From: Hansschlegelia beijingensis
GTDB taxonomy: Bacteria > Pseudomonadota > Alphaproteobacteria > Rhizobiales > Methylopilaceae
Direction: 5' to 3'
Length of the DNA stretch: 64,000 nt
Assembly (NCBI RefSeq): GCF_014196425.1
Contig: NZ_JACIDR010000002.1
Coordinates: 372,001 to 436,000, forward strand
Numbering within the stretch: position 1 is the stretch's first letter; each line of letters starts with the position of its first letter. Both the position numbers and the translations under genes were made by a program. The notes beneath the pieces are model-generated. The model saw nothing but the letters and a program-made list of their open reading frames with translations, was not told the origin of the DNA and searched no databases. Below are positions 5,890-31,992 of this stretch, one piece after another.

Positions 5890-6063
5890 ATGAACGACTC
5901 CGTCGAGCAGGATCATCCCTGGACGCTCGAAAACGTGCAGCAGCTGCAGGAGCTCGCGCGGGAAAAGGCGCCGGCCGCCCTGATCGCCATGCGCCTGCGC
6001 AGGTCGCAATCCGACGTCCACGCCAAAGCGTCGGAACTCGGGCTGATGCTGGCCGCCGAGTGA
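5890..6063 (+). CDS. Small GcrA/SANT-like helix-turn-helix protein (57 aa)
   Basis: A 57-residue gene with an excellent ribosome-binding site (GGAGG five bases before ATG). Translation gives a tryptophan-anchored motif followed by a helix-turn-helix: PWTLENVQQLQELA (residues 10-23) and LIAMRLRRSQSDVHAKASEL (31-50), ending LGLMLAAE. The pattern W-T-x-E-x-V-x2-L, then I-A-x2-L, then V-x2-K-x3-LGL matches the N-terminal DNA-binding domain of GcrA and of small Myb/SANT-like proteins common in Hyphomicrobiales. The C-terminal tail of true GcrA, which contacts sigma factor, is absent. It stands alone between sdhB and the 3' end of pheT and directly precedes a dense GANTC cluster. The DNA-binding role is inferred. 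Confidence 0.7.
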   Translation: MNDSVEQDHPWTLENVQQLQELAREKAPAALIAMRLRRSQSDVHAKASELGLMLAAE

Positions 6064-6170
6064 GCTTTGACCTCGTCCGGCCCGGGCGTTCATCTCGCCC
6101 GGACCGGAGTCTTTCAAAGACCGTGGTTAACAATGCCTTGCAGTATGAGGCCCGCGCCGAGTCGAGATGC

Positions 6171-6236
6171 GAACGAATCGGGAATCAGCGATTCGTCCGC
6201 GATTCGTTCTTCATGGAACGAATCGTGATTCGACTC
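6171..6236. repeat. GANTC-rich cluster of GAACGAATCG palindromes
   Basis: The 10-mer GAACGAATCG and its complement recur: 6171-6180 forward, 6189-6196 (8 of 10, complement), 6200-6209 complement, 6216-6225 forward. The last two form a perfect 10-bp inverted repeat with a 6-base loop. Seven GANTC sites fall within 6175-6236 (at 6175, 6182, 6190, 6201, 6220, 6227, 6232). Four more flank them at 6107, 6159, 6264 and 6317. The array lies between the convergent 3' ends of the GcrA-like gene and pheT, so it is not an obvious promoter for either. Confidence 0.8.
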
Positions 6237-6335
6237 TGAGCCGCCGGGCACGACGGCGCCGGAGACTCAGCGACGCGCCTCGTCGATCGCCCGAATACTC
6301 TCGGGCCGCGCCTCAGGACTCTGGCCCTGCTCGTC

Positions 6336-8756
6336 TCAGCCGCGAAGCGTCGCGCCGGTGGCCTTGGCGACCTGCGCCACGATGCGCTCCGCGACCGCTT
6401 CGATCTCGGCGTCGGTCAGCGTCTTCTCGCGCGGCTGCAGGGTGACCGCGAGCGCGAGCGAGACCTTGCCCTCCGGCACCCCCGGTCCCTCGTAGCGATC
6501 GAACAGATCGACCCGCGTGACGAGCTTGCGGTCCGCGGCCTGGGCGGCGCGGATCAGCTCGGCGGCTGGCGTGTCGCGGTCGGCGAGGAAGGCGAAGTCG
6601 CGCGAAAGCGGCTGCAGCGCCGAGCCCTCGAAGGGCGGCTTGGCGCGCGTCGGCTTCGCCTTCGGCTGCGGAAGCGCGTCAAGGATGAGCTCGAAGCCGA
6701 CCAGCGGTCCTGAAGCGCCAAGGGCCTGAAGAGCGCGCGGGTGGAGCTCACCGAAAGCGCCGAGAACGACCTTTGGCCCCAGCTGCAAGGCTGCCGAGCG
6801 GCCCGGGTGGAACCAGGCCGGCGCCGCGCCCTGCGCGATCTGGACCGCCGTGGGAGACACGCCGAGCGCCGCGAGCGCCGCAAGCGCGTCGCCCTTGGCG
6901 TCGAACGCGTCGACGGGCAGCGTCGCCTCGCCCCAATGCCTGCCGGCGCCGCGCGCCTTCGCGGTCCCGCGGCGGACGCCGGCCGCCGACATGCGCTGGT
7001 CCTCGGGACGGTCGCCCAGGAAGGTCTGGCCGACCTCGAACAGCGCCACGTCTCCGACGCCGCGGTCGGCGTTGCGCTGCGCCGCCGCGATCAGGGCCGG
7101 CAGCAGGCTCGGCCGCATGTCCGAGAGGTCCGCCGAGATGGGATTGGCGAGCGCGAGCTCCGCCCTGCCGCCCCCGAAGGCTTCCGCCTCCTTGCGCGAC
7201 ACGAAGGACCACGTCACGGCCTCGACCAGGCCGCGGGCCGCAAGCGTGCGCCGGGCGTTGCGCGCGCGGCGCTGGATCAGGCTGAGCCTTGCGCCCGAAA
7301 CGCTGGCGCCCGCCGGCAGCGGCGTCGCGGCCACGCGGTCGAGCCCGATGATCCGCACGACCTCCTCGACCAGGTCAGCCTTGCCCTCGACGTCGGGCCG
7401 CCAGCTCGGAACGGCGACCTTGAGGCGGTCCCCCTGGCCGGTGACCCAGAAGCCCAGCATGCTGAGCGTCGCCTTGATCTCCGCCGGAGCGAGATCGAGA
7501 CCGGCGAGCCGTCGCACCTCGGAGACGGGGAAGTCGATGATCAGGTTCCGCTCGGGAACGGCGCCGGCCGAGACGATCTCGGAGGCCTCTCCGCCGCAGA
7601 ACTCCAGCACAAGCTGGGTCGCGAGCTCGAGGCCGGGCAGCGCGAAGGCCGGATCGACGCCGCGCTCGAAGCGGTAGCGGGCGTCGGAATTGACGTTCAG
7701 CGCGCGGCCGGTGCGGGCGATGTTGAGCGGGTCCCAGAGGGCGCTCTCGATCAGGACGTCGGTCGTGTCCTGGTCACAGCCGGTGGCGGCGCCGCCGATG
7801 ACGCCCGCGAGCGACTGCACGCCGTTGTCGTCGGCGATGACGCACATCGTCTCGTCGACCGCATAGGTCTTGCCGTCGAGCGCGAGGAAGCTTTCGCCGC
7901 GGCGGCCACGGCGCACCACGAGGTCGCCCTTCACCTTGGCGGCGTCGAACACGTGCAGCGGCCGGTTGCGGTCGAACGTCATGTAGTTGGTGACGTCCAC
8001 CAGCGCGTTGATAGGCTTCTGGCCGATCGCCTTGAGGCGTCGGCGCAACCACTCGGGCGACTGGCCGTTCCGGACCCCGCGCACCAGGCGTAGGGCGAAG
8101 AACGGCGACAGCGGCTCCGCGTCGCCGAAATCGAAGCGCACAGCGGTCGGGCACGGGAAGGCGCCCGCGACCGGCTTGATGACGGGGTCGCGCAGTTCGC
8201 CGATCTCGGCGGCCGCGAGGTCACGCGCGACGCCGTGGACGCCGAGGCAGTCCGGCCGGTTCGGCGTGACGGCGATCTCGATCACCGGATCGTCCAGCCC
8301 CACCATGGGCGCGAAGGGTCGGCCGACCGGCGCGTTCTCGGGCAGCTCCATGATGCCGTCATGGTCGTCGCCGAGGCCGAGCTCGCGCGAGGAGCACAGC
8401 ATGCCGCCCGAGGCGACGCCGCGGATCTCGGACGCGCCGAGCTTGACGCCGCTCGCCGGGATCACCGTGCCGGGCGCGGCGAACACCACCTTGAGGCCCT
8501 GCCGCGCGTTCGGAGCGCCGCACACCACCTGCAACGGCGCGCCCTTGCCGACGTCGACCATGCAGACCTGGAGCTTGTCGGCGTTCGGGTGCCGCCTGGC
8601 CTCCAGGATGTGGCCGACGATGAAGGCCGACAGATCGCCCGCCTTGTCCTCGACGTCCTCGACCTCGAGCCCGACGCGCGTCAGCGTGTCGGTGACCGTC
8701 TTGAGGTCAGCGTCGCCGCCAAGGTGCTCTTTCAGCCAGGAGAGGGAGAACTTCAC
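6336..8756 (-). CDS. pheT: Phenylalanyl-tRNA synthetase beta subunit
   Basis: Non-catalytic but editing and tRNA-binding subunit of the alpha2-beta2 enzyme that charges tRNA-Phe. At 806 residues it has full length: N-terminal EMAP/tRNA-binding domain (about 40-150, with [14 protein letters not shown]), B3/B4 editing domain (about 210-375), B5 domain, catalytic-like core, and C-terminal ferredoxin-fold anticodon-binding domain (about 710-805). Its ATG overlaps the pheS stop by four bases (ATGA), so the two are translationally coupled. It is last in rpmI-rplT-pheS-pheT. Confidence 0.96.
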
Positions 8757-30576: not shown

Positions 30577-30796
30577 GGAGGCTGCAGCGCGGAGGGACGG
30601 CCTAGCGAAAGGCTGTCGAGGAGGCGGTGGACGGCTGTGGATGAACTGAGCCGCTTCCGCGAGGCGAGACCGTACTGTCGCCGAGGCGGCCATTTTCATC
30701 AACACCCCTGCGCGGCGGGAGAGCCGTGAAAGGCGGCGCCGTGGAAATGGTGAACAACTCCTTAACCGCCCGGCGAAGCACGGCTCGCCACAGGCG

Positions 30797-30812
30797 TTAA
30801 CGGATGGTTAAC
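30797..30812. promoter_or_regulatory. CtrA-binding box
   Basis: TTAA-N7-TTAAC, exactly the CtrA consensus, inside an inverted repeat (GCGTTAAC ... GTTAACGC, 30795-30814). In Caulobacter, phosphorylated CtrA at such boxes silences the origin and regulates the neighbouring hemE promoter. Confidence 0.7.
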
Positions 30813-30823
30813 GCGCGCTTGGC

Positions 30824-30843
30824 TGTGGACGGGTTGTGGAGGG
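30824..30843 (-). promoter_or_regulatory. Pair of DnaA-box-like elements
   Basis: TGTGGACGG (30824-30832) and TGTGGAGGG (30835-30843) lie 11 bases apart in the same orientation. Each matches the TGTGGA core of the DnaA-box complement but deviates in the last three bases, as weak origin boxes often do. A better match, TGTGGATGA, lies at 30636. Confidence 0.45.
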
Positions 30844-30921
30844 CTCGTAACGGCTGTAATCCGCCTGCCTAGAAAAAGAAGCAGAAAGACTCGAATCTTA
30901 GAGTCTGGAAGAGAGGCTCGA

Positions 30922-31992
30922 GTGAGCGCGCCTGTGGTCGAGAGAAGAGAAACGCCTCCGAGAGACGGGTCCCTCTTCCTCAGGACGCTCTCCGGCGAAG
31001 CGCTCCCGACGCCTCCGGTCTGGCTGATGCGGCAGGCGGGGCGCTACCTGCCGGAGTACCGGGAGCTCAGGGCCAGGGCCGGCGGCTTCCTCGATCTCTG
31101 CTACACGCCCGCTCTCGCGACCGAAGTGACGCTGCAGCCGATCCGCCGGTTCGGCTTCGACGCCGCCATCCTGTTCTCCGACATCCTCGTCGTCCCGCAC
31201 GCGCTCGGGCAGCACGTCGGTTTCGTCGAAGGCGAAGGTCCGCGGCTCGAGCCGGTGACGTCGCGCGCCGAGTTCGGACGCCTGCGGGACGAGATCGATC
31301 TGGCGATGCTGGCCCCGGTCTACGAGACGGTGAGCCGCGTCCGCTCCGAGCTCGCGCCGGAGAAGGCGCTGATCGGCTTCTGCGGCGCGCCCTACACGGT
31401 CGCGACCTACATGGTCGCCGGCCGCGGCGGCGACGAGCAGGCGCCCGCCCGGCTGCTCGCCTATCGTGATCCGGAGGCCTTCAGCGAACTCATCGATCGT
31501 CTCGTCGAAGCCTCCGCGGCTCACTTGGTCGCGCAGCTCGAGGCCGGCGCCGACGCCGTCCAGATCTTCGACAGCTGGAGCGGCGACCTGCCGCCCGACG
31601 AGTTCACCCGCTGGTCGACCGAGCCGATCAGGGCGCTCTGCGAACGGGTCAGGGCCAGGGTTCCGGACGCGAAGATCCTCGCGTTTCCGCGCGGCGCAGG
31701 GGCGAAGCTCGCCGGCTTCGCCCGCGCCGTTCCGGCCAACGCCTTCGGGCTCGCGACCTCCGAGGACCTGCGGGCCGCCCGCGCGGCCGTTCCCGCCGGG
31801 GTCGCGCTGCAGGGGGCGATCGATCCCTTGGCCCTGATGGCAGGCGGCGCCGCGCTCGATCGGGCGGTGGACCGGGTGCTCGAGGAGCTCGGCGGCGCGC
31901 CGCTCGTGGTCAATCTCGGGCACGGGGTGCGGCAGCACACGCCGCCGGAGCATGTCGGCCAGCTCGTGGCGCGCGTCCGGCGAAACCGGTAG
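30922..31992 (+). CDS. hemE: Uroporphyrinogen decarboxylase
   Basis: Decarboxylates uroporphyrinogen III to coproporphyrinogen III in heme synthesis. The 356-residue protein has the signature WLMRQAGRYLPEYRELRA near residue 34 and the later GFCGAPYTVATYMVAG block. A GTG start at 30922 is used with GAGAGG six bases upstream. It borders the putative origin and is followed after 48 bases by hemJ, another heme enzyme. Confidence 0.95.
   Translation: MSAPVVERRETPPRDGSLFLRTLSGEALPTPPVWLMRQAGRYLPEYRELRARAGGFLDLCYTPALATEVTLQPIRRFGFDAAILFSDILVVPHALGQHVGFVEGEGPRLEPVTSRAEFGRLRDEIDLAMLAPVYETVSRVRSELAPEKALIGFCGAPYTVATYMVAGRGGDEQAPARLLAYRDPEAFSELIDRLVEASAAHLVAQLEAGADAVQIFDSWSGDLPPDEFTRWSTEPIRALCERVRARVPDAKILAFPRGAGAKLAGFARAVPANAFGLATSEDLRAARAAVPAGVALQGAIDPLALMAGGAALDRAVDRVLEELGGAPLVVNLGHGVRQHTPPEHVGQLVARVRRNR

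Follow-up and report, generated by a model that had tools for sequence, protein, structure and literature searches.

A conserved GANTC cluster of the Methylopila group is homologous to a module upstream of a Suv3-like helicase gene in Hyphomicrobiales

SeqA-type sequestration sites carry several methylation sites on one face of the helix. Alphaproteobacteria have no SeqA homologue according to the available text of a review (PMC6090056), which notes that another protein could fill the role. Conserved non-coding motif clusters have been described for four orphan methyltransferases and are located at putative origins; GANTC is not among the motifs in the accessible portion of that study (PMC4752239). 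Over-representation of GANTC in intergenic DNA is already known, as the available part of PMC3973325 indicates. CcrM-associated intergenic repeats (CIR) are credited to Chen and Shapiro (2003) in the accessible pages of another review (PMC2229807). In Caulobacter, YGAKTCG is the form of the site reported for activation by GcrA, as given in the available text of two papers (PMC3667746, PMC7987155). The GANTC cluster described here bears on how CcrM methylation is read in alphaproteobacteria beyond GcrA at single promoters.

We analyzed a window of 64,000 nucleotides from Hansschlegelia beijingensis, which belongs to contig C2 of a 3.66-Mb genome. An earlier note on this DNA had counted 11 GANTC sites within 215 bp and seven within 62 bp, and the recount gave exactly these numbers. 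The sites start at positions 6107, 6159, 6175, 6182, 6190, 6201, 6220, 6227, 6232, 6264 and 6317, and the seven-site subset spans 6175-6236. The note had also described GANTC as scarce. This holds for the window, since it contains 93 sites in total compared to 362.9 expected from dinucleotide shuffles. When 93 sites were placed uniformly in 64 kb, the maximum in 20,000 draws was 5 per 62 bp and 7 per 215 bp. The note had proposed counting GANTC density genome-wide. In 20 sampled stretches (400 kb, ~11% of the 3.66 Mb), 506 GANTC were found, equal to 1.27/kb; no 62-bp interval had more than 4 and no 215-bp interval more than 5, and this sample thus contains no comparable cluster. A chance origin of the cluster is ruled out by the site counts, the own-genome sample and the uniform-placement draws. 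The sequence GAACGAATCG has five copies in the genome, three of them inside the cluster. The features of the locus are listed below, in window positions.

6107 to 6321, no strand assigned: the whole GANTC cluster, 11 sites, a density reached neither elsewhere in the window nor in the 400 kb sampled from the own genome.
6171 to 6236, plus strand: the conserved core GAACGAATCGGGAATC...GATTCGACTC with 7 GANTC, from blastn in 7 other genus genomes and alignment A1.
6200 to 6225, no strand assigned: the central dyad CGATTCGTTC-N6-GAACGAATCG; GATTCGTTC and GAACGAA are kept in 13/13 genus genomes, with a spacer of 5 or 6.
6123 to 6131, no strand assigned: GTGGTTAAC in place of the conserved ATGGTTAA; NNNGTTAA is present here in 13/13 genomes and the exact ATGGTTAA in 8/13.
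6292 to 6298, plus strand: CGAATAC, found 3' of the core in 6/8 dense orthologues (AATAC in 8/8).
5890 to 6062, plus strand: an ORF of 57 aa without a Pfam match, which terminates 5' of the cluster; similar DNA occurs elsewhere in relatives.
6336 to 8756, minus strand: pheT, its 3' end toward the cluster.

The element is conserved in the Methylopila group. It was found in 13 of the 13 genomes searched, eight of which carry a dense form, and the search for the palindrome in relatives suggested in the earlier note therefore did not find it absent. With the core as query, blastn gave matches in seven other genomes (13 searched, own included), and the resulting alignment of eight sequences, A1, has a mean column identity of 86%. 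A sequence-only model built from the eight dense elements, R1, scores E <= 2.8e-20 in 8 of the 13 genomes, and its E values range from 3.7e-8 to 1.4e-4 in the remaining five. The dense elements contain 5-7 GANTC in a 76-nt core and 3-5 more in 300 flanking bases. The sparser version, present in 5/13 genomes, has 4 GANTC in its best 100 nt. Two blocks are kept in the alignment of all 13, NNNGTTAA on the left and the central dyad. The pattern GATTCGTTC-N3-8-GAACGAA is found at the element in all 13 genomes, and its sole extra match is located in a coding frame (L130) of G001. The window-type model gave no match in five genomes of sister genera of the same family.

The named relatives that share a neighboring protein belong to Methylopila and Hansschlegelia, apart from one record with the label Chelatococcus sambhunathii. 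A record with this label, strain S14 (JADBEO010000025.1, L207), carries the element and groups with Methylopila (genus g1); the label may be wrong. The palindrome GATTCGTTC-N5-GAACGAA is also seen in several genomes of genus g37 (L144-L150), sometimes in two copies ~240-370 bp apart. Its neighbor there is either a gene identified by eye as glnA-like or some other gene.

Searches across the order revealed related elements in other genera. R1 produced weak matches in other genera, and 53 of 397 genomes were matched in all, the own genus's 13 included. A helicase gene is located downstream in all 27 such loci examined, 9 from the own genus and 18 from others, and the own-genus copy of the helicase has the Pfam domains DEXQc_Suv3 and Helicase_C. 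Alignment A3 covers 26 of 28 helicase modules (L065 and L067 were lost for want of an anchor) and has the consensus GAACGAATC..GANTC.....GAGTCAGCGATTCGGCC.CGATTCGTTC.AGACTCGTTCC. A second model, R2, was built from A3 and thus without any window-type sequence. It matches 295 of the 397 genomes and 98 of the 141 genera of the order, including modules in the five sister-genus genomes mentioned above. R2 also finds the element in the window.

6166 to 6211, plus strand: segment homologous to the helicase-upstream module (R2, 34.4 bits, E 2.3e-9 in a search space of 223 kb).

Because R2 holds no window-type sequence, this match identifies the window element as a homologue of the helicase module. Compared by eye to the module, the window element is missing a ~10-11 bp segment bearing one GAGTC, and its last half-site is inverted instead of direct. 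R2 finds two places in the own genome (G000), and the helicase copy there (C2:27310-27391) has only 2 GANTC. We fetched 40 loci from 20 families, chosen from among the matches listed to spread families and good matches by construction; the helicase is downstream in 38 of them, and the mean is 3.95 GANTC per element vs 0.16 expected from their own flanks.

Base counts in the module were made on the best 52 of 126 matches, in an alignment fitted to the model. GATTCG is invariant among these 52 modules (GATTC 52/52). At another site GANTC is kept in 39/52 with A23, C10 and T6 at the N position, and its G and A never vary. At other module sites the N base is fixed, and GANTC alone therefore does not explain the core. 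Several loci (e.g. L077, L246, L281) have further module copies ~160-290 bp from the next. In G006, two helicase-module copies are arranged in tandem, 184 bp apart (G006:C1:2267770-2268033). An upstream block like CACATCTNGTNG is partly kept in helicase loci (L246-L285, L074-L091).

The sites upstream of the helicase modules are phased on the DNA helix, with distances close to multiples of 10.4 bp. For 48 modules from families other than that of genus g22 (172 sites, 243 pairs), the mean cosine at 10.45 bp is 0.267, and 0/2000 random placements were as high. This null ignores shared ancestry, for which runs with one locus per family are the guard at module loci; they gave 0.298 when each of 20 families was represented by its richest locus, and 0.266 on average for random choices. 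Masking further module copies left 0.249. In genus g22, the mean cosine is 0.91 (7 loci, 143 pairs) and successive spacings are, for example, 21, 21, 21 and 30. Ten other motifs were tried upstream of the modules, and three of these had too few pairs for a score. GCNGC and CGNCG, whose counts are similar to that of GANTC, gave 0.047 and -0.028; AGNCT, ACNGT and TCNGA gave 0.023 (13 pairs), -0.288 (10) and 0.143 (33, p 0.12), respectively. TTAA gave 0.108 and reached 0.37 at its own peak, 11.2 bp. The background for GANTC itself, in two 400-kb genome samples, is 0.053 (own genome) and 0.091.

The window-type element has the same property in its flanks. Across the eight dense genomes, the score is 0.620 for sites that lie beyond the 76-nt core (36 pairs) and 0.627 for those beyond the palindromic arms (64 pairs), and in both cases 0/2000 random placements were as high. 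These genomes share ancestry, for which the values from distinct distances alone, 0.599 outside the core and 0.507 outside the arms, are a partial guard. With the core sites counted in, the phasing is almost lost: the score is 0.092, and 68/2000 random placements were as high. Flank phasing varies by genome from 0.03 (G009) to 0.98 (G005, 3 pairs), and is 0.91 in the own genome (6 pairs). A set of window sites close to this phase follows.

6107, 6159, 6201, 6232, 6264 and 6317: six GANTC sites, a subset picked by eye, with spacings of 52, 42, 31, 32 and 53 bp, near whole 10.5-bp turns.

Three sites of the palindromic part (6175, 6220 and 6227) do not share this phase. Rayleigh R for all 11 window sites is 0.51, and for all sites together another period scores clearly higher in 6/8 dense orthologues. 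The helical phasing fits a multivalent protein-docking, titration or organizing site.

The conserved half-sites invite another interpretation, in which the element is an operator for a repressor that binds GAAC/GTTC half-sites, LexA-like or other, and GANTC arises by overlap (GAACGANTC). We judge this unlikely. GAAC and GTTC are invariant in the best 52 of the 126 modules, and the direct repeat GTTC-N7-GTTC, a LexA-type box, is found in 51 of the 52. The available text of PMC12700426 gives this repeat as the LexA box of Caulobacter. The palindrome with a spacer of 5 or 6 is kept in 13/13 genus genomes. In contrast, the direct repeat is absent from 12/12 window-type elements examined (G007 was outside this set). 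Phasing of GAAC/GTTC upstream of the modules has its own peak at 11.0 bp, with a value of 0.31, but at 10.45 bp it is -0.010, compared to 0.267 for GANTC. Outside the core, all eight dense elements are also enriched in GANTC, with 3-5 per 300 nt vs 1.27 per kb across the genome sample, which speaks against an operator built of GAAC/GTTC half-sites. Since the LexA-type box is present in 51/52 helicase modules, the ancestral module may serve another regulator. Together with the strong GAAC/GTTC half-sites, the box leaves room for such a regulator.

The genes next to the element are not constant. In the own genome, the cluster is located between the small ORF (5890-6062, plus strand) and pheT (6336-8756, minus strand), both with their 3' ends toward it. 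The convergent setting described in the earlier note thus stands for the own genome, and also for G005, but in other dense relatives with listed ORFs a gene next to the element reads away from it. Depending on the genome the neighbors are pheT, a gene for a 271-aa protein, meaA-like, metW-like or other genes (names given by eye). Because they differ, the convergent setting is incidental. The window also includes hemE (30922-31992), a Kinase-PPPase gene and, named by eye from translations, dnaQ-, coaE-, aroE-, maf- and rho-like genes.

The 271-aa protein has no Pfam match, and its gene adjoins the element in 9/13 genomes. The element could therefore be a control region of a neighboring transcript, with GcrA/CcrM and CtrA regulating the 271-aa gene and a CtrA-like half-site in between. 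The motif at this place, exact ATGGTTAA in 8/13 genomes and GTGGTTAAC in the own genome, is the reverse of TTAACCAT in its exact form, and TTAACCAT is a CtrA half-site in the accessible text of PMC11527210 and PMC3692519. This explanation appears rather unlikely. The 271-aa gene is absent from the ORFs flanking the element in G000, G003, G004 and G005, where the element is equally dense. Conversely, two Hyphomicrobiales MAGs (L214, L215) contain a relative of the 271-aa protein at 57-58% identity and have no GANTC cluster upstream of it. No sigma-70 consensus is found at the own-genome element. A promoter of the 271-aa gene is weakened as a candidate by the four genomes without the gene beside the element and by the two MAGs without the element. 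An EcfG-type promoter, which we take to be of the form GGAAC/CGTT, was considered for the element, and the spacing did not fit.

The window also contains a probable replication origin.

30706 to 30921, no strand assigned: probable oriC in the gap that separates hemE from the Kinase-PPPase gene, ~24 kb from the cluster; it contains TTAACGGATGGTTAAC and 3 GANTC (30888-30905).

The sequence TTAACGGATGGTTAAC upstream of hemE is a full CtrA box, and a gap between Kinase-PPPase and hemE genes with a CtrA box and GANTC is what we take to be the layout of alphaproteobacterial origins. Eight of the 13 genomes have the element and hemE on one contig, at distances of ~22, 25, 34, 35, 35, 73, 164 and 1500 kb. 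In the own genome the cluster is ~24-25 kb from the probable origin; in G006, hemE and the element are 1.5 Mb apart. A position close to the origin is thus not required, and within the genus the element is often, not always, near it. For the helicase module, 10 of 14 other genomes of the order have module and hemE on one contig. Nine of the distances are ~37, 46, 51, 52, 93, 469, 692, 1139 and 1168 kb; in the tenth, G221, it is 5.5 Mb along the contig, or ~1.8 Mb if circular. Some genera thus often have the helicase module close to the origin, and other genera do not have it there.

The short distances, ~25 kb from hemE in the own genome and 22-73 kb in 6/8 one-contig genomes, raise the idea that the element could be all or part of the chromosomal origin. 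We consider this barely credible. The origin is expected in the Kinase-PPPase/hemE gap with its full CtrA box. In G006, a single contig, the summed GC skew is lowest at a stretch at 2.0 Mb and rises from 2.23 Mb, with hemE at 2.15 Mb; from 20 sampled stretches covering 9% of the genome, this coarse minimum is near hemE and 1.5 Mb from the element. A position beside hemE, CtrA boxes and a GC-skew minimum, by which an oriC is recognized, were not found for the cluster, ~25 kb away in the own genome and 1.5 Mb away in G006. Two observations rule the cluster out as an oriC candidate: the order of genes at 26-34 kb in the window, and the distance in G006.

The earlier note had also offered a small RNA under cell-cycle control, and this idea is disfavored. 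The cluster strand folds better than shuffles (z -3.28), as expected if the locus produced a structured RNA, but palindromic protein sites also fold. Among 26 helicase modules, 0 pairs have both sides changed. The eight window-type elements gave one cell of covariation, within the range of shuffles. An Rfam search of the element returned no match, and sigma-70 and terminator consensus sequences are absent from it. A structured small RNA is therefore very unlikely. Since covariation, an Rfam match, and a sigma-70 or terminator consensus are all missing, the simpler interpretation is that the DNA is recognized by its sequence.

A mobile, CIR-type intergenic repeat would account for GANTC within an inverted repeat and for neighbors that change, and such repeats have been described (PMC2229807, in its available text). 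However, each genome has one dense copy, and R2 finds two places in the own genome, which makes this origin highly improbable. Plasmid and phage searches gave no match for the element. A multi-copy repeat or mobile element is ruled out by the copy number and by the missing plasmid and phage matches.

The proteins that could act on the sites are encoded throughout the genus. GcrA (PF07750) is present in 13/13 genomes, as is a gene with a RAMA domain, whose own-genome copy has N6_N4_Mtase and RAMA domains. The CcrM-like protein of the own genome (L289:1480-2613) has its best match to the Caulobacter CcrM model NF050803, with 610 bits, below the curated cut-off of 830. The YGAKTCG form accounts for 6/11 cluster sites, compared to 92/506 in the genome sample and 14/82 in the rest of the window. 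The earlier note had suggested a CcrM/GcrA titration site or a chromosome-organizing element. This is plausible, and the presence of CcrM-type and GcrA genes, the excess of YGAKTCG and a phasing that fits docking all point in its direction.

Our preferred reading, to which we assign a probability of about one half from the sequence evidence, is that the cluster is a cis-acting, CcrM-methylated GANTC array on which GcrA or another methylation reader docks, and that it is a relocated derivative of the helicase module. In many Hyphomicrobiales an ~80-bp module precedes the Suv3-like helicase gene, and the cluster would be a genus-specific, single-copy derivative of it. The GANTC sites of the cluster are predicted targets of methylation by CcrM. 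A reader, either GcrA with RNA polymerase or another protein, could then dock on several sites at once; simultaneous docking is suggested because many sites are on one face of the helix. The state of this putative nucleoprotein complex would follow full or hemi-methylation, and hence the passage of the replication fork. Where the array is near oriC, it would become hemi-methylated soon after initiation. Methylation, the reader and an output in titration or timing are parts that we infer for the array. The main doubts concern the reader, GcrA or another protein, and the output, which may be titration, timing or control of a neighbor.

A conserved helix-phased GANTC array, found in 20 families sampled at one gene and moved as a unit in one genus, offers bait for a reader and a precise target for deletion. 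A sharp prediction follows from the phasing: function should be lost if the flank sites are shifted by half a turn, and kept if they are shifted by a full turn. A broader proposal is that Hyphomicrobiales have a dedicated reader of CcrM methylation on helix-phased GANTC arrays, a counterpart of SeqA. The helicase module and the Methylopila copy would be its main docking sites, and it would sense or delay events after the fork. We regard this as possible but doubtful.

Compared to described systems, the cluster is closest to several in part. CIR, as far as the available text of PMC2229807 describes it, is likewise intergenic, ~110 bp long and made of inverted repeats with a conserved GANTC in alphaproteobacteria. 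A conserved GANTC in an inverted repeat is found in the cluster as well; many copies per genome are not. By that description, with which our comparison was made, CIR is abundant in the genome and has GANTC at or near the terminal loop. Unlike it, the cluster packs 11 sites into 215 bp, occurs as one dense copy per genome, shows helical phasing and has a homologous module in front of a single gene.

The GcrA/CcrM promoters of Caulobacter and Brevundimonas resemble the cluster in their intergenic GANTC, the enrichment of YGAKTCG and the presence of both GcrA and CcrM (PMC3667746, PMC7987155, in their accessible parts). The targets named there have one to three sites each, whereas the cluster has 11, is located between two 3' ends and is without a sigma-70 consensus. 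The region upstream of Agrobacterium gcrA has a strong local excess of GANTC 5' of the gene, similar to what we observe. According to the available text of PMC11514494, it is the promoter of one gene and has 6 GANTC in 250 bp, compared to 11 in 215 bp in the cluster. In the literature consulted, mostly open-access and available in part, we found neither a helix-phased GANTC array nor any report of conserved GANTC clusters in front of this helicase gene, and the accessible text of PMC4840208, PMC8116508 and PMC5082802 has nothing on such an array.

The Dam/SeqA GATC cluster at oriC of Gammaproteobacteria is also dense, non-coding and conserved, and is composed of sites for a solitary methyltransferase (PMC4752239 and PMC6090056, as far as their available text goes). 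The cluster differs from it in its location away from the origin and in its use of GANTC and CcrM. The feature of sites on one helical face has scores of 0.267 for the sites upstream of the modules, 0.62 for the non-core sites here, and 0.092 when the core is included.
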